Shown here: positions 5,785-61,761 of the stretch, piece by piece
How positions within the stretch are numbered: the stretch's first letter is position 1
Layout: every line of letters starts with the position of its first letter
DNA from: Polytrichum commune
Lineage: Eukaryota > Streptophyta > Polytrichopsida > Polytrichales > Polytrichaceae
Assembly (NCBI GenBank): GCA_950295325.1
Contig: OX485809.1
Span: forward strand, 14,508,001-14,572,000
DNA: 64,000 bases
Reading direction: 5' to 3'
Notes under the pieces: generated by a model
What the model was told of the DNA's origin: nothing
Seen by the model: only the letters and a program-made list of their open reading frames with translations
The model's database searches: none
Translations under genes and position numbers: made by a program

Positions 5785-5792
5785 TTGAGGAT

Positions 5793-15137: not shown

Positions 15138-15230
15138 CAAATCCACGCCTCCACTGCGTCACCAAGTTCCGCTTCCACATCGCGCTTTTGCTGCTTCGGA
15201 GATTAGTTGACTGTGTTGCTACTTGTGGAA

Positions 15231-26690: not shown

Positions 26691-26715
26691 GTTCACTGTG
26701 TTCCTACTTGTGGAA

Positions 26716-30990: not shown

Positions 30991-31137
30991 CATTGATAGG
31001 ATACATTACAATGTTATTGAATTCAATGAGGAATGCATAAAGTCTTTCCAAGACACCAATGTTGTACCTGTCCTATTATATTTTATTAAATTGTTTGTTT
31101 TCCGTGGAAAGACTTTATGCCTTCCTCGGAGTCAAGT

Positions 31138-40211: not shown

Positions 40212-40304
40212 CAAATCCACGCCTCCACTCCATCACCAAGTTACGCTTCCACATCGAGCTGTTGCTGCTTCGGAGATTAGTTGACTGTGTTGCTACTTGT
40301 GGAA

Positions 40305-41666
40305 ATGGAGGGTTGTGATAGTGGCACTTATGGAGTTGTAAGGCGTCTTATCGATCTTTGCTTTGAGCTGCAGGACATGTGTATGCGGGCCTTCCAGTCG
40401 AAGAGCTATGCTCAGCGACGTGAGATTTCAAAATTGCAAGAACATACTCGTCAAGACATTTTGGGAAAGGTCCTGGACTCTATTCACATATGTAATATTA
40501 TCGATTCTATAAACTCCCTCCTACTGCAAAATTCCGAGTTGGAACGAGATGTCCCATTCAACGGAATCACAGAATGCCTTCAGGAGTTCCCGAAAAACGT
40601 TGCAACTTTAGCAAATGATGTACGCGGAGCATACGCCGCGCTAGTTGTCCTGCTCTCTTATGTATACTTGTATCTCACAGGCTGTGGCGGGTGGGATGGT
40701 TCTAGAGCAGTGTCATCTGGGTCGTTAGATTATAGGGACACTTACATCGCCATAGTTCTCTTCCGAGGCGCCTACGTTTGGATTAAGTTCAGAGACGTTG
40801 CTTCTACTAAACGTATTCCCGCAGGAGCGGTACAACAAATAAGAACCTCGTGCAAAGATGGTCGAATCAAACAGAAGTACGAGCCGCGGTTCAAACCTCG
40901 TAAGGAGAATGGCGTATCCTTCAACTGGATCTACCTTGGCCGTTTTGATTCGTCTGCTGATGCAGAAGTCGTGTATCGGATGGCTGCTTCGTGTTACGAT
41001 TACGGCAAGGGTTACGGTACTCCTCTGGATCTTGCAGGAGATGGCCGCGAGTTCTTCACCATTATTCCAGAGTTCACTCCGGCAGAGAAAACCATGTCGG
41101 GCAGGGCGAAACAGGAATTGGTGAAAGAGCGAGTGCAGGAGCTTTACGAACGCTACAAAACAAAGAAGGATGCCCTAAACCTGCCGCCGACCTTACCTGG
41201 AGCGAATTTGGAGCAGGAGCTTCAAAATCGTCGTCTCCAATCGGAGATTATGAGTGAGCAACAACAAAAGGAAGATCTCGCGCGTCAGCTACAACAGTCT
41301 CAGATTCTTCAGCAAGCGCAGATGATCCAAATTCAAAACTTACAGCGCCAAGTCCAAGATCAGCAAGCACAGCAGTTCCAAATTCAAGACTTACAGCTCC
41401 AGGTTGAAGATTTACAGCGCCAAGTCCAAGATCAGCAAGCGCAGCAGAATCTCCAGCAACCACAGCAGTTCCAAGTCCCAAACTTACAGCCCCAACCCCA
41501 ACTCCCACATCTTCAGCAACAACAACGTGAGGAGGAGCCGTTGACTATTGAGGAGATTTGGGACGAGTTGTTGGGCACGGAGCTATCTCCAGAGGAAGCC
41601 GGGTTTGCGGCGGAGTCCACAAACTTTTGGGGGGATATCCAAGTCATAGATGAAACCTCAACGTAG
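40305..41666 (+). CDS. AP2-like domain, Gln-rich coiled-coil protein, copy 4
   Basis: Intact paralogue of 453 codons. It lacks three residues just before the hydrophobic core (RGAYAALVVLL where copy 1 has REAYAVVVAAVVLL), a clean in-frame loss. N-terminal residues 40-105 carry more substitutions than the rest, including FPKNVATL near residue 95 and a different charge pattern. The AP2-like part, Gln-rich coiled coil and EIWDELLG tail are kept. It ends ETST and not ETTT. It is followed by about 1.2 kb of shared non-coding flank and then the LINE. The intact frame suggests it was functional until recently, or still is. Confidence 0.8.
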   Translation: MEGCDSGTYGVVRRLIDLCFELQDMCMRAFQSKSYAQRREISKLQEHTRQDILGKVLDSIHICNIIDSINSLLLQNSELERDVPFNGITECLQEFPKNVATLANDVRGAYAALVVLLSYVYLYLTGCGGWDGSRAVSSGSLDYRDTYIAIVLFRGAYVWIKFRDVASTKRIPAGAVQQIRTSCKDGRIKQKYEPRFKPRKENGVSFNWIYLGRFDSSADAEVVYRMAASCYDYGKGYGTPLDLAGDGREFFTIIPEFTPAEKTMSGRAKQELVKERVQELYERYKTKKDALNLPPTLPGANLEQELQNRRLQSEIMSEQQQKEDLARQLQQSQILQQAQMIQIQNLQRQVQDQQAQQFQIQDLQLQVEDLQRQVQDQQAQQNLQQPQQFQVPNLQPQPQLPHLQQQQREEEPLTIEEIWDELLGTELSPEEAGFAAESTNFWGDIQVIDETST

Positions 41667-42890: not shown

Positions 42891-42902
42891 TGGGTTTCAT
42901 CA

Positions 42903-43322
42903 GAAGACGATTGTGAACAAGACCACTACGAGGTCTTTTCTCACAGTGACAGATGAGAGAGAGCTGCTGAGAGCTTAGCCTTCCCGGTGAGGTGTGCGAC
43001 GGTAGAGAAGCCGTTGTAGATTTATGTGCGTACTGCTAGGAGGCTGGCCTTGCAGTGACCCTGCGCTCACTAGGAAACAGACGGCCAGTGTGTTTGGAGA
43101 GGGGCTTGGCAGTGTTGAGGGGTATTGTGTATGCTCAAGTTTTAGATCTGGTGAATTAGGTATGTGGAAATGTCAGTTGAACCTTAAGAAGTAGAGCACT
43201 CTGAAGAGCTGGGACTCTGCTTAGTTATGATTAGGAGAACTGCATTGCTCCACTGACATTCGATTAGATCTAAAAACTGTGTGTATCACATTAGGGGAAG
43301 GGAAAACAAGCACCCATGACCC
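42903..43322 (+). other. LINE 5' leader
   Basis: 420 bp of mixed composition, unlike the A/C-rich body. It holds a perfect 6-bp stem, AAGACC (42919-42924) with GGTCTT (42932-42937). It presumably contains the internal promoter. No ribozyme fold was confirmed by eye. Confidence 0.5.
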
Positions 43323-45890
43323 ATGCATACTGACACTCTAGATCGCCACACTGAGCCGGGAAATACACCTTCAGAAATAGACAGAGAGTCGAACAGGAGC
43401 TCGAGGAGCCAAAGGCTCCTTTTTTCTTTCATTCACATTGCTACTACATTGTACCTGCTTCTTACACATAGTATAGATGCTTATCAACTAGGTCTAGAAA
43501 CACACTCCCAGCACAAAGTAGATCTGCAGGTAGCGACATCAGCCTTACGCGGAGGAAAATCATACAGCACCAACGAACGGAGCAGGGAGGGGGTCGAAGC
43601 GGAAGATAGGGGAGGCGGCGTTATAGGCGGGGATCCAGCGCAACATAGCTGCTCAGATCTACACCAAAGGCCTACAGAAACACAAGGAACAAGCAGCATT
43701 GGAAAAGAGACTACTCACAACTTCAACAAATCAAGATCGACAACATGTGCGAACCCACACCAGAGCTGCAGCAGGAAGATTGTAGAAACCAAAGGCGACC
43801 ATCATCATATCTACTTCAATCCTAACCTCGCAGGTCTACAGATCAAGCACCGCCCCCGTAGCGCATCATCACACTCTCAATGCCAACCCAGCAAAAACCC
43901 GCATCAGATCTACCCTAATTCTAACCCTGCAGGTCTACAGATCAAGTGCCGCCCCCGAGACTCATCGCCGCATTCTCATCGCCGATCCAGCAGGAGTTCA
44001 CCTCAAACCTGCCACGATTCTCACCCTATAGCAACACAGTGTCTAACGAATCACCGCCGCTCCCACAACACAGCACAAACCGAAATGGCCTCAACAAGGG
44101 CCCCCCTCCGGGACAGTGGCAACGGGGCAGGAAGGGAGCTGATCCCAAAGGCTCTAGCCAAAGTATTTGGGGAAGAGGATGACACCATGGAGATAGACTC
44201 CCCGTCGCTAAGTCTGAAAAAACTGCTGGCAGAGAAGGCTAAATCAAACTCGAAAGCGGCAGCCAATGGGAAGAGGTCTAGGGACCGGGCAGGAGCTTCC
44301 CCACCTTCAAACACCCAGAAGGTAATCTCCCCCCGAACCAGGACTCACACCACCGAAACTCCATTAAACCAGAAACTCAAATTGTGGTTAGGTTTTGAAA
44401 CCATGGAATACCTAGCTATAGAGCAAGGGATTGGGGAATTATTTTCAGATGAAACCATTGCTGATAGAGTTACAAGGGGCATCCCTCGTAAGGAAGCCGA
44501 GGAGCTTGAAAGCATAAGCATCTCCTACCCAAGAGTGCCACAAATTTTGTATCCAAGTGTGAGAAGTGATGGACTCCCGGGGCAGCACCTTAACCTCACC
44601 CAGCTCCCATCCGAAATTGAAATCGACCCCATTTCATGCATGTCTTTAGATTTTCAAATTGCCATTCATTTTCAGCTCCCTAACAACCCCTTATTCCACA
44701 ATCACATTAAGGAGCTTGTTAAAGAAAGGCTAATTGACATGCACATTCCACTTGGTACTAACCTCATTGAACCTATCTCAGTCTTATGCATGAGTATTAA
44801 GAGAGGAGGAGTTAAAGGAGTATGGGCTGGGATAGTTAAACTTCACCTCCTTAACCCTCAAACCGACGGAGTAGCCCTACTCACAGGTCTTAGACCCTTC
44901 ATCCTCCATCTTGAACCTCACTCCAATGTTGGGAGCCTTGGCAAGGTATGCAAGTCATACCACTCCATTGCTAGGAGCAACAATCTTTCTATCAAAATCT
45001 CAAATGATGCACTAATTGGATTGACACCTCATGCTCTCTTTCTTGACGTCCTAGAAAATAGCTTTAGAAGAGGTCACAATTTTGAGGTTGTTGAAGTTCA
45101 AAAGAGCACCGCTAACAATCATGCCTATCTTGTTGCCCCTACCCCCCTTCAAGCCAAAAAAATCCAAACTCTTCAAGTAGCTACACACCACCAAATCCTT
45201 GAAGGTCAAGTAAAGAATGGCCCCTCTCTCACACTAGAGCAAAAGGCAAAAAAAGAGGCCCTTATTCTAACCTTTTACAACCTCCCAATATTGATGAATA
45301 TTGATGACACCTCATTAGAAATTTGCAAAATACTAGGAACCAAGAATGTTGTTTCTATATGGTTCCACAAGCAAGACGGTTTGAGACATAACGGAAGTGC
45401 CAACGTGGAATGCCTCAACCCCTATGTGTATAGGAAATTTGTAGGGAAAGAGGTAAAAATCGGAACTTACCATGTTGAAATTACCCCTCACCGCCGGAGT
45501 ATTGAAGGCATAGACAAACCCTCCAAGGAATTACTAATCAAATTTGGATTTGAAGACACCAATACGTGTTTGGTAAACACTATTGAAGCCATTCAAAACC
45601 AAACTCAAGGGGAGGAAAGTGCTACAAAAGGGGATGTTTTTACCGTCATGAAAGAAGCTATTGAGGAAGGCAACAAGAAACTCAAACTTGAGCTTCATAA
45701 AGACATGAGAGAATTAAAAAATGATATTGTGAGAGAAGCACACATATATGCGTATGAAATAAATGACAAAATGAAAAAACAAATGCTAGACATCCAAAAT
45801 ACTCTAACCCTAGCACTTACCGGGATGCAACAAATTACCGGCTCGGTAAATCCTAACCTCATGCTTAAAGACCAACCAAATGTGGAGTGA
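43323..45890 (+). CDS. LINE ORF1 protein, RRM-like
   Basis: Open for 855 codons from an ATG. An in-frame ATG at residue 255 (44085, GAAATGG context) is an alternative start, since the first 250 residues are Ser/His/Pro-rich low complexity. These include a roughly 33-residue tandem repeat (about 163-228, with AGLQIK(H/C)RPR). Residues about 646-722 look like an RNA-recognition fold: LILTFYNLP as RNP2-like, GSANVEC as RNP1-like and a final IGTYHVEITPH strand. Residues about 766-825 form a charged coiled coil. Known role of such ORF1 proteins is RNA binding and nucleic-acid chaperoning. It ends in TGA, where a new frame (45887) begins with a 4-base overlap. Confidence 0.75.
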   Translation: MHTDTLDRHTEPGNTPSEIDRESNRSSRSQRLLFSFIHIATTLYLLLTHSIDAYQLGLETHSQHKVDLQVATSALRGGKSYSTNERSREGVEAEDRGGGVIGGDPAQHSCSDLHQRPTETQGTSSIGKETTHNFNKSRSTTCANPHQSCSRKIVETKGDHHHIYFNPNLAGLQIKHRPRSASSHSQCQPSKNPHQIYPNSNPAGLQIKCRPRDSSPHSHRRSSRSSPQTCHDSHPIATQCLTNHRRSHNTAQTEMASTRAPLRDSGNGAGRELIPKALAKVFGEEDDTMEIDSPSLSLKKLLAEKAKSNSKAAANGKRSRDRAGASPPSNTQKVISPRTRTHTTETPLNQKLKLWLGFETMEYLAIEQGIGELFSDETIADRVTRGIPRKEAEELESISISYPRVPQILYPSVRSDGLPGQHLNLTQLPSEIEIDPISCMSLDFQIAIHFQLPNNPLFHNHIKELVKERLIDMHIPLGTNLIEPISVLCMSIKRGGVKGVWAGIVKLHLLNPQTDGVALLTGLRPFILHLEPHSNVGSLGKVCKSYHSIARSNNLSIKISNDALIGLTPHALFLDVLENSFRRGHNFEVVEVQKSTANNHAYLVAPTPLQAKKIQTLQVATHHQILEGQVKNGPSLTLEQKAKKEALILTFYNLPILMNIDDTSLEICKILGTKNVVSIWFHKQDGLRHNGSANVECLNPYVYRKFVGKEVKIGTYHVEITPHRRSIEGIDKPSKELLIKFGFEDTNTCLVNTIEAIQNQTQGEESATKGDVFTVMKEAIEEGNKKLKLELHKDMRELKNDIVREAHIYAYEINDKMKKQMLDIQNTLTLALTGMQQITGSVNPNLMLKDQPNVE

Positions 45891-47353
45891 CCACAAACCG
45901 CCAAGCAAAAAAAAAGTATTTACTACAATACTACCCCAAATACATAGAAATATATAGCAAAATACAAATACATACTAGAATAAACATACTATACCCTAGT
46001 TGCATACAAAGTACCCTACGGTGTCAAAAGACTTATACGAAATACAATCATACTTCACCTATACCCCAATATGGTAGGCCCCAACAAACCACCCACCCAT
46101 TACATATACCAGAATACATATACATCCCGTACTACAACCTCCGTACAATATACAGTCTATGTATAAAATACAGAATACATACAAGTTACAAAGTACCCCA
46201 GCTACGTCCAAAATATAATTACCACCTAAGGCACTATCCCCACCCAACAAGCAACCTTCATACCGAGTACGGAAAGTATCCAAAACAATTACACTACCTT
46301 TATTCAAGACATAAAGTCCATCCGATACACATACTATACTCAAAATACATACCTCTCCCAAAACATAACCCACACCATAAACAAGAAACCCATCCTAACC
46401 TAACAACACACCAACAAAATAAATTACATCCTAAACATCATTCACACCCAAAGTACAAACAATACTCAACAAACAAAATGGCCCTGGCCTACCGGCTTCG
46501 CCACAATACTAACCGCAAACTCCACCTCACTAATTGGAAACCTACCCCAATAACAAACCAAATATCTAAACACTATGCAAACGCATACCCCTTAACCAAA
46601 CAACAAGAAAACATAATACCCGCCCAACATCACACTACCCCTACAATTAACCGTGCACTCGTTAAAATACCAAAAATCAAAACAACTAACCTACATAAAT
46701 ACTACCCCTCTACCTCAAGTACAACAAATGTAAACCAAATATCTATAAACAAACCAAATTACACTAACCACCCACACGACAACAACCCAAAACATACTCT
46801 CTGAACAAAACACACCACACATCCAAACTATACTTCTCATCCAAAACACAAAATACAACAGCCCCACTCACAATGTAGGCACCTCACAAGAAACGAACTT
46901 CATCCTACATCCAAACCGCATCTAAAATATAGGCTACACCCTAAACAAAGGCCACACCCACAACTAAATCCCCCCATCACATCTAAACAATCAAGTAACA
47001 TTACACACACCCCGAATTACGGAAAGTACCCAAAACACATACCACACCCAATGAACTACCTTCATCCAAGACATGGATCCCATCCAAAACACATAAGCCA
47101 CTCAACACACATATCTCATCCAAAACATAACCCACATCATGAACAAGGAACCTACCCTAACCTAAAGGCATGCCAACAAAATAGACTACATCCTAAACAT
47201 AAACCCCGACAGAAATCCGTACTCTACCCCCACTCACACCCGACCCCTACTCAAAATACAAACAACACCCAACAAACAAAATGGCCTCGGCCTACCGGCC
47301 TCGCCACAAAACTAACCGAAAAAATCACCTCACCAACTGGAAACCTACCTTAA
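45887..47353 (+). pseudogene. His/Pro/Lys/Tyr-rich repeat region, modules 1 and 2
   Basis: Open from the ORF1 stop to 46804, then interrupted and open again in the same frame at 47051-47353. The protein is dominated by a six-residue beat such as HPKH plus two variable residues, with Tyr, Asn and Thr. Module 1 ends with NKMALAYRLRH...NWKP starting at 46475. Module 2 has the equivalent at 47275 but in another frame, so the frame shifts just upstream of it. No known domain. The pattern may be a structural or nucleic-acid-binding linker. Decay is visible as TGA (46802) and TAG stops. Confidence 0.5.
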
Positions 47354-48666
47354 TGACAAATCAAGTACCTAAATACTATGTGAACTCACACCCCCTACCT
47401 AAACAACAAGAAAACATAATACCCACCCTACACCACATCCCCTCTACAACAAAACTAACATTCATCAAAAATCAAAAACCAAGTAAGACACAACCAAAAA
47501 CAACTAACCTATATAGATACTTCCCTATTATTTCAAGTACATCAAATATAAAACTTATAAATGTACCAAATCACACTAACAACTACACAAAATACAACCC
47601 CCAAACACAACACACTACGCATCCAAATTTTACCGCTCATCCGAAACAAAAAGTACAATGGCCTCTCTCACAATACAAGTACTCATCAAGAAATAGATTC
47701 CACCCTAAACTCAAATCACATCCAAAGCATAGTTTACATCCTAACCACAATACACAACCAAAACCTAAACCTCCCCTCACACCTAAACAACCTAGTAACA
47801 TCACACACACCCCACCCAACCCGATTACCATAATTAAAACCATAAACATGAAAAACCCAAAAACAAACAAAACACGCCCTTTACCCAATCAATTAGGAAA
47901 TATAACATCCCCCCCACAACAAGATTCCCCCCTAAAACAAAAAATACCCCGGTCCCACCCACAATACTATTCTCATCCAAGATATAGCCCTCACCTAAAG
48001 CACAATCTTCATCCAAGGGACAAGCTTCATCCAAATCATAGAGTCCACCTAAAACATAAACTTCATCCAAAAACCAAAATATACCCAAACAAATACCAAC
48101 AAGCGTATAGGTACCAACCAAAACAAGAAATCCAATCTAACTCAAAATCTCACAAGCCTCACCCTACATACAACTTGTACCTAAAACCCACACCTTACCC
48201 CCACTCCAAATACCACCTCCACCCTAAATACAAACCCTACCAAAAATATAAACACCCATATTCAAAATACAATCCCTACCCAAATAACAAAATGGCCTCG
48301 GCCTACCGGACTCGCCACATAAATAACACATACCACTTCATAAAAAATTGGAAACCTGACTCAGTAACAAACCCACTACCTACAAACAATGCAACGTCAC
48401 ACTTCTCACCAGAACTAGTAGAAAAAACCACACCTGCTATGCCTAACCTCTTTACCACAACCAAATTCACATTTTTGAAATATCTAAAAATAAATATGAG
48501 AAAACCAAAAATACTTCAATTCTACGGATATTACTTCATTGACATACTAGATCTACTAAAATGCGGGGACATCGAACTTAACCCGGGACCAATGCCTGAT
48601 ATTCTACGAATACACCCTATTACACAAAAAAAAGAGCCAACACGTATTTTATCCCAAATACTATAA
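47281..48666 (+). CDS. LINE segment: repeat modules 2-3 ending in a 2A peptide
   Basis: 461 codons. It begins at an NKMASAYR-type block and continues with NHLTNWKP, the six-residue HPKH beat (for example HPRYSPHLKHNLHPRD near 47970), then a third NKMASAYR block at 48286-48330. It closes with a hydrophobic helix-like FIDILDLLK and the 2A motif. After the 2A proline the frame runs only 25 codons to a TAA. The downstream APE-RT frame overlaps from 48560, and an A8 run at 48626-48633 is the probable shift point. In known 2A systems the ribosome skips the Gly-Pro bond, which here would release the upstream repeat protein from the enzyme polyprotein. Confidence 0.65.
   Translation: MASAYRPRHKTNRKNHLTNWKPTLMTNQVPKYYVNSHPLPKQQENIIPTLHHIPSTTKLTFIKNQKPSKTQPKTTNLYRYFPIISSTSNIKLINVPNHTNNYTKYNPQTQHTTHPNFTAHPKQKVQWPLSQYKYSSRNRFHPKLKSHPKHSLHPNHNTQPKPKPPLTPKQPSNITHTPPNPITIIKTINMKNPKTNKTRPLPNQLGNITSPPQQDSPLKQKIPRSHPQYYSHPRYSPHLKHNLHPRDKLHPNHRVHLKHKLHPKTKIYPNKYQQAYRYQPKQEIQSNSKSHKPHPTYNLYLKPTPYPHSKYHLHPKYKPYQKYKHPYSKYNPYPNNKMASAYRTRHINNTYHFIKNWKPDSVTNPLPTNNATSHFSPELVEKTTPAMPNLFTTTKFTFLKYLKINMRKPKILQFYGYYFIDILDLLKCGDIELNPGPMPDILRIHPITQKKEPTRILSQIL
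48532..48591 (+). other. 2A-like ribosome-skipping motif
   Basis: The reading frame ends FIDILDLLKCGDIELNPGP. The D(V/I)ExNPGP core (GDIELNPGP at 48565-48591) is complete, and the preceding residues form the expected Leu-rich helix. Skipping would fall between the Gly at 48586-48588 and the Pro at 48589-48591. 2A sequences are known in some non-LTR retrotransposons, for example trypanosome L1Tc. Confidence 0.85.
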
Positions 48667-48808
48667 ACTACAACCTGAATACCAACACCTAGCAAATACA
48701 TTCGCCCCTATCCTAAAACACACACACCTACTACACCTCCAAGCAATCACCACATACCCACATCTACACCATTATACCCAAACACAAAACCAGTCGCCAC
48801 CAACCCAT

Positions 48809-50830
48809 ATGCTATACGCCCTAATTATTACCATCCACCCCGCAATAGACATATGCAATAACATGCTAGCCCAACCCCAAAACTACCACTTTAATAACAT
48901 ATGGACCAACACGTTAATCATTAGACTAGCTAACCTCACCAACCCCCCCGAGCGACACATACTGACACCGCACCCCTACACAACGTTCATACAAAACAAT
49001 CAACATATAATACTTCCTCAAAACTCAATACACGCAAAAATATACGAATTCATCCACAACCAAGTAACCACACCTACATCAACCACCCTCAAGAAAGAAT
49101 TCCCTTTCCTCCCAAACCAGTTGATAACCGAAACACTTAGATGTTTAGAAAACATCAGCGAATACTCACACCCACCCCCACTCCCAGCCGCTCCCACACC
49201 AATCACAAGAATAAACACCAATACCGAACATGAAACGATCATAATAACTTGGAATGCGTCATCACTCAACACATCATTACCAAACCTACAAAGCTTAATA
49301 AACAACTCTCTAAACAACACAGCAATCATACATATCCAAGAAACCAAACTTACTGCAAACAAATCTACGAAATATATACAAAACCTATTCCCGGAATTCA
49401 AACTCATTTTCAACAACACACACGCACTCACAAGGTGCATCCAACAAATGATGCCTTATACCCCCGGAAGAGGTGGCCTACTTACACTTATCCATCACAA
49501 ATATGCATTCCCGGAAAATGTCACCAAAATCCCCACACCAGCAAACATCTCCTCATATCTCCAAATAATAAAAATAAATAACCACCCACTAATACCTTGG
49601 CTAATCATACACATGTATATGCCCACGCACTTAGAAGACACATGTCTTATCCCACACCTTAAGAACGAAATCACTAACGAAATCACTATACACCCCAATC
49701 ACATATATACACTTTGCGGTGACTTTAACAGAGATATTGTACTTAGGGGCAGACAAAATAACAACACTAACACCCCCCCACAAGAAGAAAACTTCCAATG
49801 GAAAAACTTCACCACATCTCTCAACTTAGAATATATTCAAACCAACACTAGTATCTCAAGACAAGGTGGCTACAACTACACATCAACAAGCCTAATAGAT
49901 GGTTTCTACATTCACTCCCCAGACAACAGTAAATTCACCTCCACTACAAACACAAACATGAATCTAAATTCAGATCACTATCCGGTCACATTACACATCC
50001 CACACAACACACTTATAGCCAGACCTCCACCCCCTACAAACACCCCACCAACTAGAATACTGAACCCGATACCACCTGAAAACCTAGAAAAATTTAACAC
50101 AACATTCTTTGAAGAAAATTCCACCCAACTTAAAGAACTTATCACACTACTAGAAAACCACCAATACTTAACACCTGATCAATGGCTAGATGCCTGTGCA
50201 TTACTGGACTACATTATAAACAAAATCTCAGAAACAATTGAAAAAACCTGCAAAGCAGACCCACTACCCAACCTTACAACCAGAACATCGCAACAAGGCG
50301 GTTTTCTATCACGCAAACAAGCTAGAGAATGGAAAAGACACCTCAACACATATCACCTCATCAGAAAAGCCATTTACATAGCACAACATGACCCAAGCTG
50401 GCTAGTGCACCCCATCCTAACCGATATCCGAAACCACCAACACGTCAACATCCCGCACCCACCTGGTACAGCAACATCCCCTGATGAATGGATTAACACA
50501 ATAGTGGCCCTCGCAAAAACTGCAAATAAAGAAGCCAGAAAAATCACCACAAAATATACTAGAGACTGCATTCTAAAAGCCGTATCGAAATACCGCCAAA
50601 TGTATGAAAAAAATCCCAAGAAAATAAACTGTAAAGTCTTCAAAACCACTGAAACTTCACCTCTTGACTCCATCATTGATAGACAAAATAACATATTAAC
50701 CAGCCCTGAAGACATTACATCAGAGATTTACGCACAACAATCCATCAGTAACCGCCCAACAGTCCTCACGTGCCACCATCAAAATACACACCTACTACAC
50801 TGTACATGTGGAGTCAGACAATACCCATGA
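48809..50830 (+). CDS. LINE ORF2 part 1: apurinic-type endonuclease
   Basis: 673 codons from the first ATG, but the same frame is open from 48560, so the real protein probably begins right after the 2A. Residues 1-140 are unrecognised. The exonuclease/endonuclease/phosphatase fold spans about 143-397, with ITWNASS (Asn149), IQETKL (Glu178), HMYMP (Tyr270), CGDFNRD (Asp305, Asn307) and SDHYPV (Asp389, His390), so all the usual catalytic positions are present. Its role is first-strand nicking of target DNA. Residues 420-670 lead into the RT. The frame stops at TGA (50828-50830) after RQYP and is open again straight after it. Confidence 0.8.
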   Translation: MLYALIITIHPAIDICNNMLAQPQNYHFNNIWTNTLIIRLANLTNPPERHILTPHPYTTFIQNNQHIILPQNSIHAKIYEFIHNQVTTPTSTTLKKEFPFLPNQLITETLRCLENISEYSHPPPLPAAPTPITRINTNTEHETIIITWNASSLNTSLPNLQSLINNSLNNTAIIHIQETKLTANKSTKYIQNLFPEFKLIFNNTHALTRCIQQMMPYTPGRGGLLTLIHHKYAFPENVTKIPTPANISSYLQIIKINNHPLIPWLIIHMYMPTHLEDTCLIPHLKNEITNEITIHPNHIYTLCGDFNRDIVLRGRQNNNTNTPPQEENFQWKNFTTSLNLEYIQTNTSISRQGGYNYTSTSLIDGFYIHSPDNSKFTSTTNTNMNLNSDHYPVTLHIPHNTLIARPPPPTNTPPTRILNPIPPENLEKFNTTFFEENSTQLKELITLLENHQYLTPDQWLDACALLDYIINKISETIEKTCKADPLPNLTTRTSQQGGFLSRKQAREWKRHLNTYHLIRKAIYIAQHDPSWLVHPILTDIRNHQHVNIPHPPGTATSPDEWINTIVALAKTANKEARKITTKYTRDCILKAVSKYRQMYEKNPKKINCKVFKTTETSPLDSIIDRQNNILTSPEDITSEIYAQQSISNRPTVLTCHHQNTHLLHCTCGVRQYP

Positions 50831-52519
50831 CACGACCTAGAAGGGTACACAATTGACAAACGAGGAGAACCCCAAATTTCCTTACACACATACTTTGATC
50901 AAGAAACCTACGACTTCTGTCTTAAAAACCTAAGTAATAACAAAGCCCCAGGCCCTGACAAAATTCCCAACTCAATTCTCAAAAATATGCCTCCGTGCTT
51001 TCATAAATTATTTTTCCTATTATTTAAGCACTGCTATAAACAAAAACAAATTCCCGCATCATGGAAAACTAGCCTAACAGTTTTATTATATAAAAAAGGC
51101 AACCCATCACAACTAACAAATCACAGACCTATTGCACTAGCTAACACCATATATAAACTTTACACAAGTACACTAACCTCTATCCTATCAGCATACGGAG
51201 AAAGATACCAAATACTACACGATAGCCAAGAAGGGTTCAGAGCAGAAAGAATCACCTCCAAACAAATTCAAATACTAATTGCAGCGCTTGAAGACGCAAG
51301 ACTCACAAACCAAAATATATATATTCTTTACATTGACTTCAAAAACGCCTTTGGCTCCATTGACCACACCAGACTCTTAGCCATAATGAAAGACTTGGGT
51401 TACCCCAATGACTCAATAAACCTCATAGGAAACATATACTCACAATCTTCAACCATATTTACTAGCGAACACTTCGGAAAAACCCTACCAATCCACATCC
51501 AGAGAGGTACAATACAAGGTGATACCCTTAGCCCATACTTATTCATCATATTTCTAGAGCCCCTACTCAGATGGCTACAACAAGGAAACAATGGATATAC
51601 TTTCGGTACGTCTAGAATCAAAATCTCATCAGCAGCATATGCAGATGATCTTGCAGCAATAGCCAACAAACTAGAGACACTACAAACACAATTACATAAA
51701 CTAGACAAATTCTGCAAATGGGCAGGAATGGATCTAGGAATACCAAAATGCGCAATAACTGGATGCCCAAACAAATCTAAACTTAACCCCACAACCTTCA
51801 AGGCCCTAATCCAATCCACCAACATAAACTATAGAAACCAACCTATACCAGTCCTAAACCAACACGAACCCTACACATACCTAGGAATAAATCTTGCACC
51901 ATCACTCAAGTGGAAAACACAAATAAATACCACTACAGCTAAAATAACCAAACAATGTCAAACCCTCGTAGCATGCCCAGCCACTATGAAACACAAAATC
52001 AACATGGCTGATACAGTCATACGCGCTGGAATAGCATATAGCTTTTATGCAGTACCATACTCCATACCAGCCATAAAAATACTTGACAAAAAGATCATCG
52101 CACTCCATAAAATAATATGCGGGATACCCAAATGCACATCTAATATTGCTACACAACTCCCCCACAACCTATTTGGAATTGAAGCATTTTCACTACAAAA
52201 TGCCTATCTACGGTGTATTGGAGAGCAACTACAAAATGCCCTTAATGACAAAGGCCGTATTGGGAAAATTTATACCGGCTTAACGCAATTTATACTTGCC
52301 AAATACGGAGGTTCTAAAGAAATTACCCGTATTAAATACCACCACTGTGTTAGATCACCTATCACTAGAACACTATTTCTGCTCAAGCATAAAGCCGGAG
52401 TCCACCTTAAAAGTACAATAAACAACTTCCTCCTAAACCCATCCTCACTCGAAAACGCATGGATGCAAGAAGCACAAATGCTACAGGGTCTAAATCCTAA
52501 CACCTCACTTAAACTATGA
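50831..52519 (+). CDS. LINE ORF2 part 2: reverse transcriptase
   Basis: Continues the preceding frame directly after the TGA at 50828. Motif NNKAPGPDKIPNSIL (about 50936) opens the RT. With residues counted from the ATG at 50987: HRPIAL (46-51), YIDFKNAFGSID with catalytic Asp117, QRGTIQGDTLSPYLF (172-186), AAYADDLA with Asp220 and Asp221, and the thumb-side TYLGINL (297-303). All three catalytic aspartates are present. QGDTLSP contrasts with the QGCPLSP of the RT relics in this window, so the two families differ. It ends at TGA (52517-52519), followed by CAC just as at the first TGA. Confidence 0.85.
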   Translation, partial: HDLEGYTIDKRGEPQISLHTYFDQETYDFCLKNLSNNKAPGPDKIPNSILKNMPPCFHKLFFLLFKHCYKQKQIPASWKTSLTVLLYKKGNPSQLTNHRPIALANTIYKLYTSTLTSILSAYGERYQILHDSQEGFRAERITSKQIQILIAALEDARLTNQNIYILYIDFKNAFGSIDHTRLLAIMKDLGYPNDSINLIGNIYSQSSTIFTSEHFGKTLPIHIQRGTIQGDTLSPYLFIIFLEPLLRWLQQGNNGYTFGTSRIKISSAAYADDLAAIANKLETLQTQLHKLDKFCKWAGMDLGIPKCAITGCPNKSKLNPTTFKALIQSTNINYRNQPIPVLNQHEPYTYLGINLAPSLKWKTQINTTTAKITKQCQTLVACPATMKHKINMADTVIRAGIAYSFYAVPYSIPAIKILDKKIIALHKIICGIPKCTSNIATQLPHNLFGIEAFSLQNAYLRCIGEQLQNALNDKGRIGKIYTGLTQFILAKYGGSKEITRIKYHHCVRSPITRTLFLLKHKAGVHLKSTINNFLLNPSSLENAWMQEAQMLQGLNPNTSLKL

Positions 52520-53637
52520 CACAAATTGCTCATACATAATATAACAACACTAGACCAAATTACCATGCCTAATGGCTCCACACTAATGAACCTAGATGAA
52601 TTCAAAATCTACCACTCCACCCCCTCCAAACTCATCCAAAGTGTACTAAACATTGCTAATCAACTATTTTACCAACCTCCCTGTAACTACGAATGCCCCC
52701 TACCATGCCAACGACACCATCTGCCCAGATCCCTCAAAGACAAATATATACTAAGACACCATAACATTCTACCTCACCTACCGACTCCCCCCGTACACCC
52801 CCAAACCCTCCCATCCCCCCTCTACCCCCTCCCCCCAACAACATACTTAAGGACCCTCGACAATATCCCATATACAAAATACTGGATCACAAACAAAAAC
52901 AATCTACCGACCATAACGGAATAAAAAGAACAGTCACGTCATACCTATGTCAATGGACTACAACAAATAACCACACATACAACAAATGGCAAACCCCAAG
53001 GGACCTATACCCCTATTGCGATGCCAACACTTGCAACCACAACACCGCCTTACTTACCCACTACTACACGGAAAGACAACACAAACACTTCTCAAACATT
53101 ATTAATGCCTACTCCTCCACAGAACAACAAAGAGACACGAGATATGTCATACCTACCACTATAATCCCACTAGCACATATCTCTATTAATGAATGCAACC
53201 TAGAAAATGACATCGAAACCAACTCCGATACAATCCAAATACAATTTGACGTCGCTCACATATACGAGGATAATGGTAGGCACCTCATTACCATCCCGAA
53301 AACTAGACTAATGTGGTTATGGAAACAATACCAATTGGCAAAAAACACCACACATGGGCTAGAACCGCCCACCCAATCTTTCGAAACCGAAATTGTCTGG
53401 TTATATCAAAGATACAAATACCGAATCCCGAAAAGTGACCCACTCAAACGTGCCCAATATACAATACCAACCCCAATATTGGATCTCCTAATAACCACAT
53501 TCAATATCAACCAGACATACTTCTCATCCCCAGTGACATGCCCCACACAACTCACCCAATTCTACTCGCCACTCTCGCGTGACATAATATTTGGATCCTT
53601 AGGGAAAGCATTTGACCACAAATGGCAAAGAATATGA
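52520..53637 (+). pseudogene. LINE ORF2 part 3: linker with frameshift, methyltransferase-like start
   Basis: The RT frame continues past the TGA to 52924, with a Cys-rich CNYECPLPCQRHH (about 52682). Within C-runs (about 52770-52845) the coding sense moves to another frame, which is then open to 53637. The latter part, WLYQRYKYRIP and FYSPLSRDIIFG...AFDHKW, resembles a methyltransferase-like segment seen by the annotator in some algal LINE polyproteins. This is recall and was not checked. The frame ends at TGA (53635-53637), again with sense on both sides. Confidence 0.5.
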
Positions 53638-55614
53638 TACGCTCACCCCCACAACGAAACAGACCTACAACAAGTCATTCACTGGGCTCGAATGGCGGCC
53701 CAAAATGATCCACATACAATCACTATATTTATATCTCCGGATACCGACTGGTACAAAAACCCAAACCCGCCCGTAGGTCCATTCCTGGACACACACATCA
53801 TTGCCCACTTTGCAGCCGATACGATTGCATATGAAGAACCCACAATACCTCCTGAACTCAATATTACAAGAAAAGAACCGTCTACCCTACAAATATTTTG
53901 TATCCACCACCAAAACAATAACATAGGTACCTATGAACAAATGAAACTACTAAAGGACATAGCAGACAATCTCCAAATACTACAAAGTCACACCCAAATT
54001 GCACCACCCACCCCTTCAAACATCACAGTGAACTCTAGTAAAAAATGGTCTAAATCAAACTACCCAAATATACCCCTAAACAATAACATCCCCACCCCAC
54101 AACTCCCAAACTACCAAACAAACCTACCACTAAAATTCCACCCCCAATTCAGCTACTACACTGATGGCTCCTTTATGAAACCCAAAGAAATAGCCCCCGG
54201 GGAATGGAGAAGAGAAAGAGTTGGATACGGTATCTACAGCCCCAAAGGGCTAAACATCGCCAATAGATTACATGGACATCAAAACATATTACGAGCAGAA
54301 ATGATTGCTATACACGAAGCACTAAGCATTATCAACGCACAGTTTCCCAACGAACCCGCATACATATTCACAGACAGTCTAAATGTATTATACCTACTTA
54401 ACACTCAAATTAAACACCCCACACTTCATAATAGTCACCCAGACCAAACCACACTAGCCTCCATGGTAAAAATTCTTCAAAAAAAGTTACAACCAATTAC
54501 ACTATACAAAGTTAGAGCACACGTCAACATTGACGGCAATGAAAAAACAGACAAACTAGCCAAAAAAGGATTAGAATTAGAGCACAGAACTGCCGCCCAC
54601 CCATACGAACATGCCCACGCCACCCCTTACTATTACCAAAAAGACGTATGGGCCTCGATGGAAGACGTTCCGGACAAAGGCCCAGTTAGATTTCTAGAAA
54701 AACAAATTAAGAAATATGATAGGGAAACGAACCTAGCAATCATGGCTACACAAACCCCCAACACCTGTAAATGGACAGAAAACATAGATATAGACAATGA
54801 GCTGTCAAACGAATTCTGGACAAATCCCGCTATCACAAACAAACAAAAATCATGCCTCATCAAATTCCACACAGGAACCTACATGGGTAATGTGAGAAAA
54901 CAAATGTTTTTTGGCCACCAAAGATTTCCCACTATCACGTGCCCCATATGCAACTCAAATGAACCAGATACATGGATACATGTATTACTTACATGTAAAC
55001 ACCAACATATACACTCACTTAGAGTTAAAAGACATAACAAAGCAGTCGGAGAAATTAGAAAGCTCCTAATCTCATCAGAAAAATCCCGATGCTTTACTCT
55101 CATGAATGTTGGCACCTTCAATAGCAATCCCCAAGAAAACACAGTCCCCAATTGGCAACTCCCCTGCACATGTAGTACACAAAGATGTCACTGTAACTCA
55201 AGATTTAGACCTGATATCCTATGTGTTAAAGGACTAACATATCAAAATGCCCCCCCCAACGATGTCAACCCTAACCTTACCATACAATTCATTGAATTCA
55301 CATATTGCAATGACAGATTCTCCCCAAAAGCAATTGAAGCAAAAAATAACAAATACAGCCCACTAATTGCCAGCATTGCTTCCAAAGGATGGAAAATCGA
55401 ACCACTTATTGTCATCAATGTTGGTGCCAGAGCGACTGCCCACACCCCATCTATGAAAGCACTAGAGACCAACTTCAAAATACCTATGGCTACCATCAAA
55501 AATACCTTCAAAAACATTAACACCATTGCAATACAATATGCTATGTCTATTCTCCTCCATAAAAGGAGAATTGAAAACCACCAACCACTCCCCCAAAATC
55601 CAGACCCCCCATAA
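53638..55614 (+). CDS. LINE ORF2 part 4: RNase H, CCHC finger, nuclease-like tail
   Basis: The same frame continues after the TGA at 53635; the first ATG is at 53692 (residue 1 below). Residues 1-80 complete the methyltransferase-like segment (IFISPDTDWY, CIHHQNNNIG) but lack a clear NPPY. RNase H spans about 152-294: YYTDGS (Asp158), AEM (Glu203), FTDSLN (Asp228), VRAHVNIDGNEKTDKLA (His277, Asp287), a full catalytic set. CPIC...H...C (417, 420, 430, 435) is a zinc finger as in R2/Dualen-type tails. After it, RPDIL (506-510), IEFT (534-537) and KNNKY (551-555) with WKIEPLIVINVG are spaced like a PD-(D/E)xK nuclease; Thr replaces the usual Lys, so activity is doubtful. Stop TAA at 55612-55614. 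Confidence 0.78.
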   Translation, partial: YAHPHNETDLQQVIHWARMAAQNDPHTITIFISPDTDWYKNPNPPVGPFLDTHIIAHFAADTIAYEEPTIPPELNITRKEPSTLQIFCIHHQNNNIGTYEQMKLLKDIADNLQILQSHTQIAPPTPSNITVNSSKKWSKSNYPNIPLNNNIPTPQLPNYQTNLPLKFHPQFSYYTDGSFMKPKEIAPGEWRRERVGYGIYSPKGLNIANRLHGHQNILRAEMIAIHEALSIINAQFPNEPAYIFTDSLNVLYLLNTQIKHPTLHNSHPDQTTLASMVKILQKKLQPITLYKVRAHVNIDGNEKTDKLAKKGLELEHRTAAHPYEHAHATPYYYQKDVWASMEDVPDKGPVRFLEKQIKKYDRETNLAIMATQTPNTCKWTENIDIDNELSNEFWTNPAITNKQKSCLIKFHTGTYMGNVRKQMFFGHQRFPTITCPICNSNEPDTWIHVLLTCKHQHIHSLRVKRHNKAVGEIRKLLISSEKSRCFTLMNVGTFNSNPQENTVPNWQLPCTCSTQRCHCNSRFRPDILCVKGLTYQNAPPNDVNPNLTIQFIEFTYCNDRFSPKAIEAKNNKYSPLIASIASKGWKIEPLIVINVGARATAHTPSMKALETNFKIPMATIKNTFKNINTIAIQYAMSILLHKRRIENHQPLPQNPDPP

Positions 55615-55822
55615 CTCAGAACTTTAAAGTTAGGGTAAGGGGCAAGAGGTATTATATTAGGCGTAGTTACATTACTGGTTTCTTGTGTCTAAAGTGTCTA
55701 CTCTCGAAAGGGGGGAGTAGATCTTCTCCTTCATACCTCTGTCCTGTGGGCTTGGGATTGAAGGTAAATCGAACAGACACTTAATTCACGTCGGTCTCCT
55801 TCGGAGACCAAAGTTGTTTCTC
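55615..55822 (+). other. LINE 3' UTR with two hairpins
   Basis: 208 bp of mixed composition. TCTACTC (55697-55703) pairs with GAGTAGA (55715-55721). GGTCTCC (55793-55799) pairs with GGAGACC (55803-55809) over a TTC loop, 13 bp from the end. No poly(A) or simple repeat precedes the TSD. The hairpins are candidate RT recognition structures. Confidence 0.7.
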
Positions 55823-55834
55823 TGGGTTTCATCA

Positions 55835-56629
55835 TCTAAAGTTGAGGATTAAAGGCGACCTCAACAAAGATGACAAACATAATTGAATGGGTCTCTTTCA
55901 ACTAAAAATATAAGAAACACCACTTCAATGCACAAACAATGCAATCACTAAATTCTAATATACCTAATATATGGGAAACCACATTCAATCAAAAAGAACA
56001 ATAAAAAGAAATGAGAAAAAGAGAAAAAGCAAAAAAAACCATCTAGGGTTGGTTTGACTTCGCACCCAACACCTAAATTGCACAATATGCCCAAGCAATA
56101 CAATCCACCTTCCTCTAAACATATTCCTCAATTTGCACCTCTTATCCTTCCTCTCCACTTATTTCTGTTACTTCTTCTGGTCCCACAAGCAAGGGTTAGT
56201 TATTTCTTACGTTAAAAATTTGCTCAGGCATGCACATGTGCCATGAGCTAAACTAATGTAAAAGTTGGCAAACCAATCAGTACCCCGCATGTGGCTCCGC
56301 CCATGGTTGGTTTTTGGATTTTTGTTGTATAATATATCAAGACAAATAGAAATGGGATATAAAGCCTCAACCTCCAATAAGGACCTTGGAATGGATATGG
56401 CTAAACTTAATTGAAAAAAATCTAGAATGATGCTCTTGGGATCTAAGAGCCAACAAACAAATTTGTAAATTTGTTTGTTACGAACAACAAAAGGAATTGA
56501 CTAGATGGATGGAGAATGTCGAGACTATATTGTGGCATTCAAATGGGTCAGAGCAAGAAGCTAAGCATGTTTTAGGTAATGTCCATCTACTTTGGACCAC
56601 ATTCTTACATTATGTACTTGAATTGAATA
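55835..56629. other. Non-coding spacer before RT relic, U4
   Basis: Colinear with 18106-18900 of U2. No gene seen. Confidence 0.55.
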
Positions 56630-57861
56630 AGAAGTATTTATAGGTCCATGTTTCTACTCTTGTTTTGTTGGTTTCCAAAAAATATTTTGACACAATTCCA
56701 TTTGACAAGCTTTGGGAATGCCTCCAACATTTAGGCGTACCGATACATTTACGACAAGCTGTAAAATCAATGTATACCACGGTCTATGCAAAAGTACAAA
56801 TCAACGGGGATACACATCACAAAGTAATGTCAGACTCGGGCTTAAACAAGGATGTCCCCTTTCCCCCACACTGTTCGGCTTATGCATTGATGAACATGAA
56901 AGATATTTTGGATGAGACAAACAAAGATTCTATGTGTTTATATCATACAGTGGTTGCCAAATGTTGTTTCGCAGTCTAAATCAAGATCAAGTTTACAATG
57001 ACTTCTTAAGAAACTATTTGAATTTTTCACTTCTTCTAGTCTTGATGTCAATTTATCTATGGTCAAGATCACGATCTTCAGTTGTAATGAAAGGAAATTA
57101 AACCAAGAAATATTTTACCTAGGCAATGACCAAATTGAGATAACCCATGATTATAAATACCTCGGGACTACTCACATGGCCACTTTGAACCATCAAGTAA
57201 AAGGGGAAGGAGTGTATGAAAGCCTTGATGGGCACCTTAAGGGAGCAGTTGTTTGAGTCACATGTTGGGAACTCAAATCACATCTATTCAAGGCTTTGGT
57301 GCTCCCAACTTTCACATATGGCACTAAAATTTGGGGAGGTGACTTGAACAACTTCCCATGCAAATTATATGCTCTTAAGCCAACTATGAGCTTTCAACAA
57401 CAGTTTGCCCACCTATCCTTCTCTTGGTTAGTCAGTCAAGCAACATCATTCTCCCAACACCTTGCCGAAGAAGGGGCTATCATTTGGCACAAAGTGACAA
57501 CCAAGTTGAAGGCATCATGGGGTCTATGTCATTGGGAAACCCATGCCACCCCAACATCAAAATCATATTTGATGATATCAAGAAGGTTTTTTCTTGCTAA
57601 AGAGGGGAACTCTTTCCCCTTTCTCGCGGAAGAAACTAGATTACCTCCACCTCAACGATTCTTTCAAATACAAATGTGAATTACACTTGTAGCAACCATT
57701 GCCACCACCACAACGCAAGATCATTGTTGCTTACGGCACACCGAATCATAGACTTGCCATCGAAATTGGACGGTGGACAGTAGAAGACAATGTCTTCATA
57801 CATGTCAGCTTTCACAAATAGACACCGCCTTCCAAAGGCATGCCTCACAACAAAGATGTAA
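56630..57861 (+). pseudogene. Non-LTR reverse transcriptase relic, copy 4
   Basis: The clearest copy in parts: FDTIPFDKLWECLQHLGVPI at about 56686, and in another frame GLKQGCPLSPTLFGLCIDE at about 56838. The YADD region is deleted or out of frame (about 56950). DYKYLGTTHM and LPTFTYGTKIWGGDL follow. It is not the same family as the giant LINE. Confidence 0.72.
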
Positions 57862-60635
57862 CCGCGTAACATAATATAATAACCAAGGCCCTGTAGAGAA
57901 GCCGCACCCGAGTACGTGTACCCAACCACCACCTTCAAATCGAGGCCATCCAAGGGTCGACCGCTTGCTAGTCTCCAAATTCCTTCCAAGAGTAAATAAT
58001 CAACATGTTTAGCACCGCTAATCGGCGCCTCAACATACTTCTTATTCACATGCATGGGTGCTATATTTCCAATCCTAGTTGGTAGCCTACGTGGCATGAA
58101 TTAAGTATGGTGACACTAACTAAGTTTGCCGATCTAGCATGTGCCCTTTGAGGTGTAGCCCATTTTTTTGGTACTTAGGAATTCATGAGAGGGGCGTTGC
58201 TCATTTGGCTTGGAGCCGGCAATTGGCCTCCTTTACATAAGGGCACAAAGTAATTCCTTTAAGAATTTTGTTGTTGTTGTGATGGTATCTTTGTAAAGTG
58301 GTCAAGAAATATGGGAATTCTTATCGTCTTGGAAGTTTAATACTTTGTGAACAAGGGTCTCTACCATAATTCGTAAATTGTGTTGCTATGCATTGCTTTA
58401 GTGGAAGAATGGAAGCACGAAGGACTAATGCAAGTGGGTCTTAAATGGACATTTTTTTTCTCATAGGATGTGAAACATGTAATTAGTGCGAAATGATTAG
58501 CAAACCCTAATTATCCATGTAGCCACTTTCGTCACAATCTTCGGAGCTTGTATGAAAATCTTAGTCATTGTCAAAGTGAAGATTTTCAAAGTTATTAAAT
58601 CCTTGTTATATGTCCCCCCAATTATGTTGAATACTGCATCTAGAATGGTTACCAAGATTCTAAACATGTAGTATGATCTCAATTCAACACATTTTTATTT
58701 GGTGTTTGTTCTTAGATTCACACTCTATAGTACACCACTCAAGTAAAGGTGTCTGTTCTAGATTAACAATGAATTAGTCACATCTACCTTAAAAGGGAAG
58801 AAAACTTTGGCGTCAAACTCAACCTCATACATCTATAAGGAAGATGTGTGTTATTCAAACATAGCAACATTGTGGGGGGAGCGTTCACTTTTGGGGAGTG
58901 TTGTATATCATGTGCGACTAAGGAGTATTTTGGTAGGGGGTATTTGATGGCATGGACAAATTAAACGGACCATTTTATTGCCTAATTATAAAATTCATGA
59001 TGTTTTGAGGGTTCTTATATTTATTTACAAATCGTGAAAGGGGGCAATTTTTCATCCCTTAATATATCATGATGAATTGAGGTAAATTAGAAAAGTGAAT
59101 TCCAAAGATTAAAGACATAGATACTTCTAAAAATTCGAGTGCCAAAACAAAGACTAAGCTATCAAGGAATGACACTATGAAACATTGAGTCCAAATGGCA
59201 ATTGCTCTTACATTGACAACCATAAATTCTATACTTAATGGCATCACCAATACACAAATGCTCCATTGTCAACATGAAAATGATATATCCCATACGGTAT
59301 ATTATATCTAAAAAAACTACATGGGATATGTTGTAAAGGACGTTATATTAGATATAATCTAACATGGCATATTTGTTTCATCATGTAGGTGACCTCTTAA
59401 AACATTCAAACCTTTAGGTACAAAAAAAAAACTACACTATATTTTTGGTCGCACCATTCAAGCTAAATTTTTTTAAGTCACGCTTGGGCAAAGCAATAAT
59501 GTGGACACCCATATTTGAGTGGTATGTGGCTAGATGTGGATCTAAAAACGGACACCAAAAAGACAAGTGCTTAAAAGAGGTTAGTCTACATGCTCAAAAT
59601 ATGCTAACCATTGGAGGCTCTATAATCAACATGATTGGGGGAAGCTATATGACCACTTAATGAGCACAAGAAACTTCATGTTTTAAATAGATAAGATATT
59701 CATACGAGCTCCCAAAATTATGAGACAAATGGCTACATGCACAACTTGGCTTTGCTAGTCATCTTGCACTAACTGGATGTTTCATAGGCTCTACGAGAAG
59801 TGGGACCAAAGTGAAAAAGTATCCAAGTGTCACACACGTCTACCTTAGCAACTAGCAAAGTGTGAAGGCATTTGGGTATGCTTTACAAACTATCCAACAT
59901 ATGTTTGCTTGCTAGATAAAACGATGACCACGTGTGAAAGCCGCTTAGCTAAAGCCTACTCAAAAAATCTCCGGTACAAGTTCTTGTAGGTTCAATTTTC
60001 ATTCCGATTATTGCTCATAGTGCATTGTATATTTGCAAATGCAACACAAGCTTCGTTTGGTAAAAGTAATTGGCAGAAGTTGGAGGACATGCAAATCGAA
60101 TTGAATAACATCCACACACCTTGTCAAGATTCACTTGACGAAGTGTGTCGGACGTCCCCAAGTCAATCATTTTGTCCACATGACCCAAAAATAATTCATT
60201 TGTAATGTAACCTAAACATGCTACTTATTAACCCTTAAAGGCCACCAAGGCCCCGATGGAGGTTTGGAGACAGGAATGATGAGTTATTTTTTGGGTTTTT
60301 GTTGTTAATTCCATTTTTAGCGATTGCTTATAGAAGTACCCCTTCTTCAAATAGCTTTATTCTTCTCATGAGCTTGTTCAATTATAGAAATAGAGTGGAA
60401 TAGGGTGCAGATGGGTGCAAGCATGGTCAAGTGGTCATAGGTTTAAGTGAAAATGATTTAAAAGAATATATCAACTTTGAATTTTGAGAAAAGAGGATCA
60501 TAAACATGTAGGAAACATATTGATCTACAAAGACAAGCAATTTATGTTGACAAAAACAATCTGAAAATGTCCCTTGAGACTTCATTATGGGTCTTGTTTC
60601 GCTTGGGGGTAATTGGTTTTGTTCAAAAGAATATA
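57862..60635. other. Non-coding end of U4
   Basis: Colinear with 9843-13000 of U1. It contains the longest version of an antisense open frame (57681-58097, minus strand, overlapping the RT relic) and a zinc-knuckle-like stretch at about 59521-59570 inside a 71-codon frame (59445-59660). Neither is supported as a gene. Confidence 0.5.
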
Positions 60636-61735
60636 CCGTAGTTTAATAGCAAGTTTGGCACAAAATAATTCTAAAAATAGAGGCCTAAAATTTTGGAATA
60701 TTATTGGCAATTTTTGCAGAATATAAAATTAATTATTTTTCAAAATTGCCAAAAAGTAAGAAATTTTTACTTCTCACTAGAGTTTTACTTACAGTGGAAG
60801 CATATGTGAATTTTTAAGGAGAGAAGGTGCTCCTTTTGTAATCAAGCTCACTTACATTAGTCCACAAAGAATATGGGTTAAGAAGTAGCAAGACTCTAGG
60901 TGAGGCTTTTCAAATGTGTTGTACACAAATTTTTGGAGTCCAATTGAGCATAGAAGATGAAGTTTTATAGAATTTTGTCCAACTAACAAAAGTTGAGAAA
61001 TCGATCCTTCTTCCACCTCCAACAAGTTTTGTGTCAAAATAAGTCTTTATGCAAAAGATATGAACAAAACATTGCAGCCGTGTAAAGATCAAAAAATTAA
61101 AATGCGTTCATAACAGTTTTTCGGAGCTCATTTGTGCATAGAAGATCAACTTTTTTGGAATTTTGTTGGTCTAAGAAAAGTTTAGAAATCAAGTAATCTT
61201 TCACCTCCAACACATTTTATGTCATTTGAAGACTCTATGAAAAAGTTATGCGTGTTATAAAAATGAAGTCTAACTAGGTGCTTCACCTCAAAGTTTACAT
61301 ATCCCATATGCATTGTTGAACACAACTCCACTCTACTTGCATAAAGCAGAGAGCATTCTCAACTCTTCACTCACATCTTACTTGTCATTCAATGCAAGAG
61401 AAATGTACAAGATATGAGCTTAAATAGAAAATTAAAAATGAATTTAAGCCAAATTTTTAAAAATTAAAAAAGAAAATTGCCGAAAATATGAATACACTAT
61501 TTTTAGGTGCCAAACCTACTTTTTGAACTTTAATTAAATATTAGGCAGCAAGTTGCCGAACCTGCTAGTAAACTACGGTATCAACTTTGAATTTTTGAGA
61601 AAAGAGGATCATAAACATGTAGGAAACATATTGATCTACAAAGACAAGCAATTTATGTTGACAAAAACAATCTGAAAATGTCCCTTGGGACTTCATTATG
61701 GGTCTTGTTTCGCTTGGGGGTAATTGGTTTTGGGA
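60459..61735. repeat. Tandem duplication of about 160 bp, second copy split by a transposon
   Basis: The stretch AAAAGAATATATCAACTTTG to GGTAATTGGTTTTG (60459-60621) is repeated at 60625-60635 plus 61579-61735, with the TIR element lying inside the second copy. The two differ at few positions. Confidence 0.8.
60636..61578. mobile_element. TA-flanked TIR element, 943 bp (Stowaway/mariner-like)
   Basis: Starts CCGTAGTTTAATAGCA and ends TGCTAGTAAACTACGG, inverted with few mismatches; the homology extends to about 25 bp. It is flanked by TA on both sides (60634-60635 and 61579-61580), with the empty site visible at 60466-60480. AT-rich, no ORF. Confidence 0.78.
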
Positions 61736-61761
61736 GCTCTCATAAATGTTTAGAATTAATT

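Follow-up and report, generated by a model that had tools for sequence, protein, structure and literature searches.

A long LINE with two predicted endonucleases and a probable Dualen/RandI-type architecture in the land plant Polytrichum commune

Our analyses of the window, a stretch of 64,000 nucleotides of the Polytrichum commune genome (C7:14508001-14572000), indicate with good confidence that it carries a long LINE with a Dualen/RandI-type architecture, in a copy that was mobile until recently and is now broken. An APE-type endonuclease (EN) is found upstream of the reverse transcriptase (RT), an RNase H is present, a predicted restriction-like endonuclease (RLE) follows downstream of the RT, and the 3′ junctions end in ATT or similar repeats, so the Dualen/RandI lead of a preliminary description was upheld in domain architecture and in 3′ repeats. 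The assignment is made by these two kinds of features, the references in our RT tree being R2 and local L1 only. This tree held three sequences each of this family and of a second, related family, four of local L1 and two of R2, 12 in all, and the groups were separate. The parts of the insertion and its flanking duplications described below lie on the forward (+) strand.

The insertion occupies positions 42904-55823 and represents a single event with a perfect 12-bp target-site duplication (TSD). The sequence TGGGTTTCATCA is present at 42892-42903 and again, identical over 12 bp, at 55824-55835, against a longest match of 9 in 200 shuffles. When the flanks were joined, they were continuous in two paralogous units of the window (17698-18505, 85% identity, and 31132-31769, 83% identity), which therefore represent the empty site; a third unit (5371-5792, then 7804 on) offers none because other DNA interrupts it there. 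A 12.9-kb LINE with this TSD and an empty site kept in paralogous units had been proposed from the letters alone, and both proposals were borne out by the flanks and the domains, as was the claim that the element is about twice the size of common plant L1s. The same description had fixed the ends to the base; this held for the insertion, whose coordinates had been given one base off, and failed for the 5′ end of the element, since the first 49 bp are filler. Specifically, in the 408 Mb of genome searched, all 39 other 3′ ends scored (40 scored out of 1223 candidates, the window included) stop at the equivalent of 55818-55823, and no copy extends beyond the proposed ends. At the 5′ side, other copies stop about 49 nt short: seven close ones (96-97%) start at 42951-42957, which corresponds to query position 49-55 of 42903-43902, and the element proper thus begins at about 42953 and not at 42904. 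We placed the LINE body at 42953-55819, with a start (GATGAGAGAG) common to the close copies and a common 3′ end, GTTGTT. The surroundings (1-42900 and 55836-62400) consist of tandem paralogous units of about 13 kb. These units contain four ORFs of 461-464 aa (1566-2960, 15207-16601, 26698-28086 and 40281-41666) with a YLGRFD stretch that may be AP2-like; the two ORFs that were scanned gave no Pfam match over the cut-off. A C-rich array of CCCCGTCCG-type repeats is located at 6035-7509, at a point at which one of the paralogous units is split and two others run through unbroken.

The filler (42904-42952, 49 nt) separates the 5′ TSD from the element, as judged from the 5′ ends of the close copies and a genome match. 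Of its region 42903-42944, one TSD base included, 41 of 42 nt match one other genomic place, C2:50387427-50387468, where the rest of the element had no match beyond chance level in 2.1 kb. Because this place shares only the filler with the insertion, a 5′ transduction from a source copy was set aside. Each of the 12 copies read at both ends, the window among them, had additional nucleotides separating its 5′ TSD from the start of the element, with lengths of 10-49 nt in the nine copies measured by script and of 19, 20 and 45 nt in the three read by eye from the sequence; from the ten copies chosen, C5:18.0 and C4:36.9 (the latter with no known 3′ end) are left out of this junction set. The two other fillers that were tested had no second genomic place at up to 2 mismatches, so that templating from elsewhere is supported for the window filler only. 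Such junctions fit template switching or filler synthesis during 5′ joining. The TSD measured 12-14 bp in 11 of the 12 copies and 18 bp in one, and the 12 copies presented 12 different TSD/target sequences, which argues against R2-like site specificity.

ORF1 (43323-45890) has 855 open codons from the first ATG in the ORF scan and gave no Pfam match; in three close copies, its frame has no Met until the equivalent of 44085. ORF2, which overlaps ORF1 at the 3′ edge of the latter, encodes, in this order, low-complexity repeats, a 2A (StopGo) peptide, EN, RT, a chromodomain-like stretch, a PCIF1-like domain, RNase H, a CCHC motif and the RLE. Four frame-breaking 1-nt deletions and four in-frame TGA codons disrupt ORF2 in the window, so the ‘few lesions’ noted previously hold for ORF1, which is open, and not for ORF2. 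The preliminary description also made no mention of the 2A and of the PCIF1-like domain. A 2-nt insertion near 51.5 kb was discarded as an artefact at an alignment-piece boundary, with the frame unchanged. In other copies, the frames open across the RT reach 2327, 2625 (three copies), 2663 and 2924 aa, and the three that were read (L035, L036 and L037-L038) start at the end of ORF1 and extend as far as the RLE, or to RNase H and beyond. Selection was estimated on one pair of copies: RNase H had a dN/dS of 0.05 and CCHC plus RLE one of 0.09, the stretch reaching from the 2A to the end of the PCIF1-like domain had 0.03-0.14, and the part immediately ahead of RNase H had 0.27. In the copy at C7:33.4 (L023-L024), ORF2 has no early ATG, its first Met lies about 203 codons in and, being in a different frame, it overlaps the last part of ORF1; its translation might possibly involve a frameshift or reinitiation.

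The beginning of ORF2 (45884-48540) is a low-complexity, internally repeated region under weak constraint (dN/dS 0.55). Directly behind it, the predicted 2A peptide LLKCGDIELNPGP is followed by a Met (48553-48591). Its core, D(V/I)ExNPGP, was found in nine of 11 copies, that is, the window and eight of ten others (L035 and L036 being near-identical), and was altered in two, to NLGP in C7:33.4 and to GDIK in L037, which has the open 2924-aa frame. Over the 29 codons around the 2A, the comparison of L035 with C4:34.9 gave pN 0.074, pS 0.458 and a dN/dS of 0.11, compared with 0.55 upstream, indicating that the predicted 2A is under purifying selection. LINEs with a 2A were reportedly described by Odon in 2013, namely trypanosome Ingi/L1Tc and sea-urchin elements. 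These likewise carry D(V/I)ExNPGP inside a LINE ORF; here, by comparison, the 2A is in ORF2 of a plant element, behind a long low-complexity region, and precedes a polyprotein with two endonucleases. No 2A under purifying selection was met in the literature searched, subscription papers being outside it, and the accessible text on 2A in non-LTR elements mentioned no plant element. According to the accessible text of one paper, natural StopGo is not found in plant viruses (PMC12846837), and a 2A in a plant LINE therefore bears on where plants use StopGo.

The catalytic domains follow the 2A. The EN (49241-49987) presents WNASSLN, QETKL, GDFN and NSDH motifs, which we read as APE-type, and matched PF03372 at E=0.024; in the relative L037, PF14529 was matched at E=1.3e-5 and PF03372 at 0.0014, the matches of both copies being below the curated Pfam cut-offs, and a PDB profile search of the EN region returned no APE chain. 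The RT (50945-51895, YADD) and RNase H (54151-54573) matched PF00078 (RVT_1; E=1.1e-29) and PF00075 (E=2.7e-13), respectively. In the C-terminal alignment A2 the Cys and His of the CCHC motif (54940-54996) are invariant. The RLE (55204-55611, RPD..FIEFTY..K..KY) extends to the end of ORF2, and all 11 aligned rows, from two families, keep its R-P-D, E-F-T and downstream K unchanged. We modelled the C-terminal 300 aa from an alignment with ten relatives of the two families (mean pLDDT 60). In a Foldseek comparison with the PDB, the top three matches were the R2 proteins 9nl2, 9dou and 8gh6 (E 1.3e-5 to 3.3e-5), and R2 proteins were the only matches with E <=0.001; on this model, the C-terminus of ORF2 is a predicted RLE. 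Besides this fold match, the RT scored best against R2 among solved structures (110.6 bits, with 64.7 for the named LINE-1 ORF2p), and R2 (8gh6, 9dou, 9nl2) also combines an RT with a C-terminal CCHC and RLE. These likenesses would be expected of an R2-like, RLE-clade element that gained its own APE and RNase H and came to resemble Dualen by convergence. We consider this origin improbable, because the RT is only 23-27% identical to that of R2, the 12 targets differ, and both the domain set and the 3′ repeats agree with those reported for Dualen/RandI. To our knowledge, APE, RNase H and 2A do not occur in R2, from which the present element differs in having all three. When the R2 RT was used as a genome query, 134 of 1138 candidates were scored, and no separate R2 family was recognised among the rows looked at.

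Between RT and RNase H, a weak, though strongly conserved, chromodomain-like stretch (52867-53091, YLCQW; dN/dS 0.03) comes first, ahead of the PCIF1-like domain (A3 columns 1-75). Its matches were weak, with a Pfam value of 0.079 in L049 and six CDYL rows at E 0.38-0.8. The model showed three strands and a helix with a pLDDT of about 80 in the first 40 residues, and no chromodomain appeared among the best 50 of 649 Foldseek rows. The PCIF1/CAPAM-like domain was placed in the window from its relatives, from PF12237 and Foldseek matches and from window motifs, with approximate limits (53347-53880), and is broken there by an in-frame TGA. PF12237 (PCIF1_WW) was matched by 13 of 13 members of alignment A3 at E<=0.01, and a genome scan placed 150 of 150 scored places over the cut-off (697 candidates). 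In L035 the match reached 43.5 bits (E 3.4e-11; cut-off 31.1), or 40.4 bits for the full ORF2; the full ORF of the second-family member L049 remained below the cut-off with 27.8 bits. For a low-confidence model of the domain (mean pLDDT 45), Foldseek ranked zebrafish PCIF1 (2.7e-4) first and human PCIF1 (1.9e-3) second, and a linker profile found zebrafish PCIF1 in the PDB at E=0.7 only. The one local L1 scanned alongside had no PF12237 match, and a scan of viral contigs with the PCIF1-region alignment returned 16 pattern stretches and no relative.

NPPF is the catalytic motif of human PCIF1. At the corresponding position, the 16 loci read were degenerate throughout: HPPN in L062 and L063, HPHN in L035, L036, L026, L032 and L064, YPHN in L030, HPNN in L041 and L042, and FPTD in six second-family rows. 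These replacements make it very unlikely that the domain is an active cap-adenosine methyltransferase modifying the element's own RNA, even though the PF12237 matches in all 13 members, the fold match of the model to PCIF1 and purifying selection (dN/dS 0.11, one pair of copies) would agree with such an activity. Given the degenerate motif, we take the domain to be, most likely, a non-catalytic RNA-binding module, perhaps for the capped 5′ end. It shares PF12237 and the predicted fold with the cap-specific adenosine methyltransferase PCIF1/CAPAM, and differs from it in lying inside a retrotransposon ORF and in its degenerate NPPF. A PCIF1-like domain in a retrotransposon was not met in the literature searched, subscription papers being outside it.

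At the 3′ end, a hairpin (GGTCTCC-TTC-GGAGACC, 55793-55809) precedes a pyrimidine-type tail, TCTC in the window (55820-55823) and longer TCT-like or ATT repeats in relatives. The exact hairpin occurs 48 times in the genome and its reversed control 0 times. For the 3′ end of the window copy, folding gave no clear improvement over shuffled sequences (z 0.42 and -1.66), that of L030 did fold better (z -3.99), and Rfam gave no match over the gathering score in the window. At all 12 junctions the element terminates in repeats of ATT or pyrimidine type, without poly(A). Pyrimidine tails were present in the six copies of the group with close 5′ ends, the window included, and ATT tails in the six whose 5′ ends diverge further; C4:35.2 has an ATT tail though its first bases are the same as those of the close group. 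Plants are known to have L1 elements with RNase H and APE, and this genome has zf-RVT L1s of its own (141 matches, with 150 of the 322 candidates scored), yet an origin as a plant L1 that grew by gaining further domains is scarcely credible, since the RT shares only 21-23% identity with four L1s found in the genome, the ORF2 proteins scanned had no zf-RVT match, poly(A) is absent from the 12 junctions and an RLE is predicted. RNase H in plant L1 is also mentioned in the accessible text of PMC4640811.

The family is large and young. An RT search of the genome gave 106 of 106 scored matches at 82-100% identity (2103 first-look candidates). Two pairs of RT matches had identical scores, C36 with C6:20.9 Mb and C1:70161883 with C1:70185752 (opposite strands, 24 kb apart), and are either assembly duplicates or recent segmental copies. 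The window copy diverges by 1.9-2.2% from four close copies (1.4-2.3% pairwise among the five) and has 114 private sites out of 12644, in agreement with the recent activity that the preliminary description had proposed. Among the 40 scored 3′ ends, 24 could be paired with a 5′ end lying 12.8-40 kb upstream in the same orientation; this pairing used 37 of the 45 rows of the 5′ search, the other eight being seven from internal repeats and the one of the C2 filler. The resulting 60% refers to best-matching copies, not to a random sample, and is a rough figure, as the 16 other 3′ ends may belong to copies that are truncated, have diverged or run into the end of a contig. The second, related family (L049-L055), taken from the rows of the R2 query and read from the RT onward, has long open frames, is 43-46% identical in CCHC plus RLE and shares 60-64% RT identity with the first. 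It carries TTTTC-like 3′ repeats and a structured 3′ UTR, in which eight of 37 predicted pairs showed pair-keeping changes on both sides (5 sequences, two of them near-identical).

The original description of Dualen is reportedly that of Kojima and Fujiwara in 2005. In the accessible text of later papers, Dualen/RandI elements of Chlamydomonas and other green algae likewise combine APE and PD-(D/E)xK endonucleases in one element (PMC3636483, PMC4640811), have an RNase H (PMC4640811), as here, and carry 3′ repeats in place of poly(A), tabulated for RandI as (ATT)n and (CTATTT)n (PMC3747384), which again agrees with our family. The present element is set apart by its land-plant host and its 12.9 kb and perhaps by its 2A and PCIF1-like domain. 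In line with such a host, the rbcL of this genome gave higher scores with the chains of pea and rice than with that of Chlamydomonas, the best row being 9chz. Extracts of two sources give Dualen/RandI as green-algal (PMC4438587, PMC8226300), the former as restricted to green algae; extracts of later ones annotate it in cryptophytes (PMC12747079) and Besnoitia (PMC9714946). No report of land-plant Dualen/RandI was found among the literature matches listed, subscription papers being outside their scope.

From these features, a mobilization cycle can be proposed. The ribosome would skip at the 2A, freeing the catalytic polyprotein from the low-complexity N-terminal part, and one or both endonucleases may nick the two strands with a stagger of about 12 bp. 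Recruitment of the RT would fall to the 3′ hairpin, the tail could anneal at the nick and prime target-primed reverse transcription, and the 5′ end would be closed by template switching or error-prone repair, leaving the filler. The PCIF1-like domain, having lost NPPF, may bind RNA (perhaps the capped 5′ end) without methylation. More tentatively, land-plant two-endonuclease LINEs might have captured a PCIF1/CAPAM domain that lost its catalytic motif and serves as a cap reader preferring full-length capped RNA, with the 2A splitting the polyprotein as the first natural StopGo in a plant genetic element; we regard this combined scenario as possible, and at present as rather doubtful. Dualen has been used as an argument that APE replaced RLE in LINE evolution, as the accessible text of PMC4640811 puts it. 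A large young land-plant family with open frames would make the roles of the two endonucleases testable, and with a PCIF1-like domain as part of a LINE, retrotransposition would be connected with cap biology.
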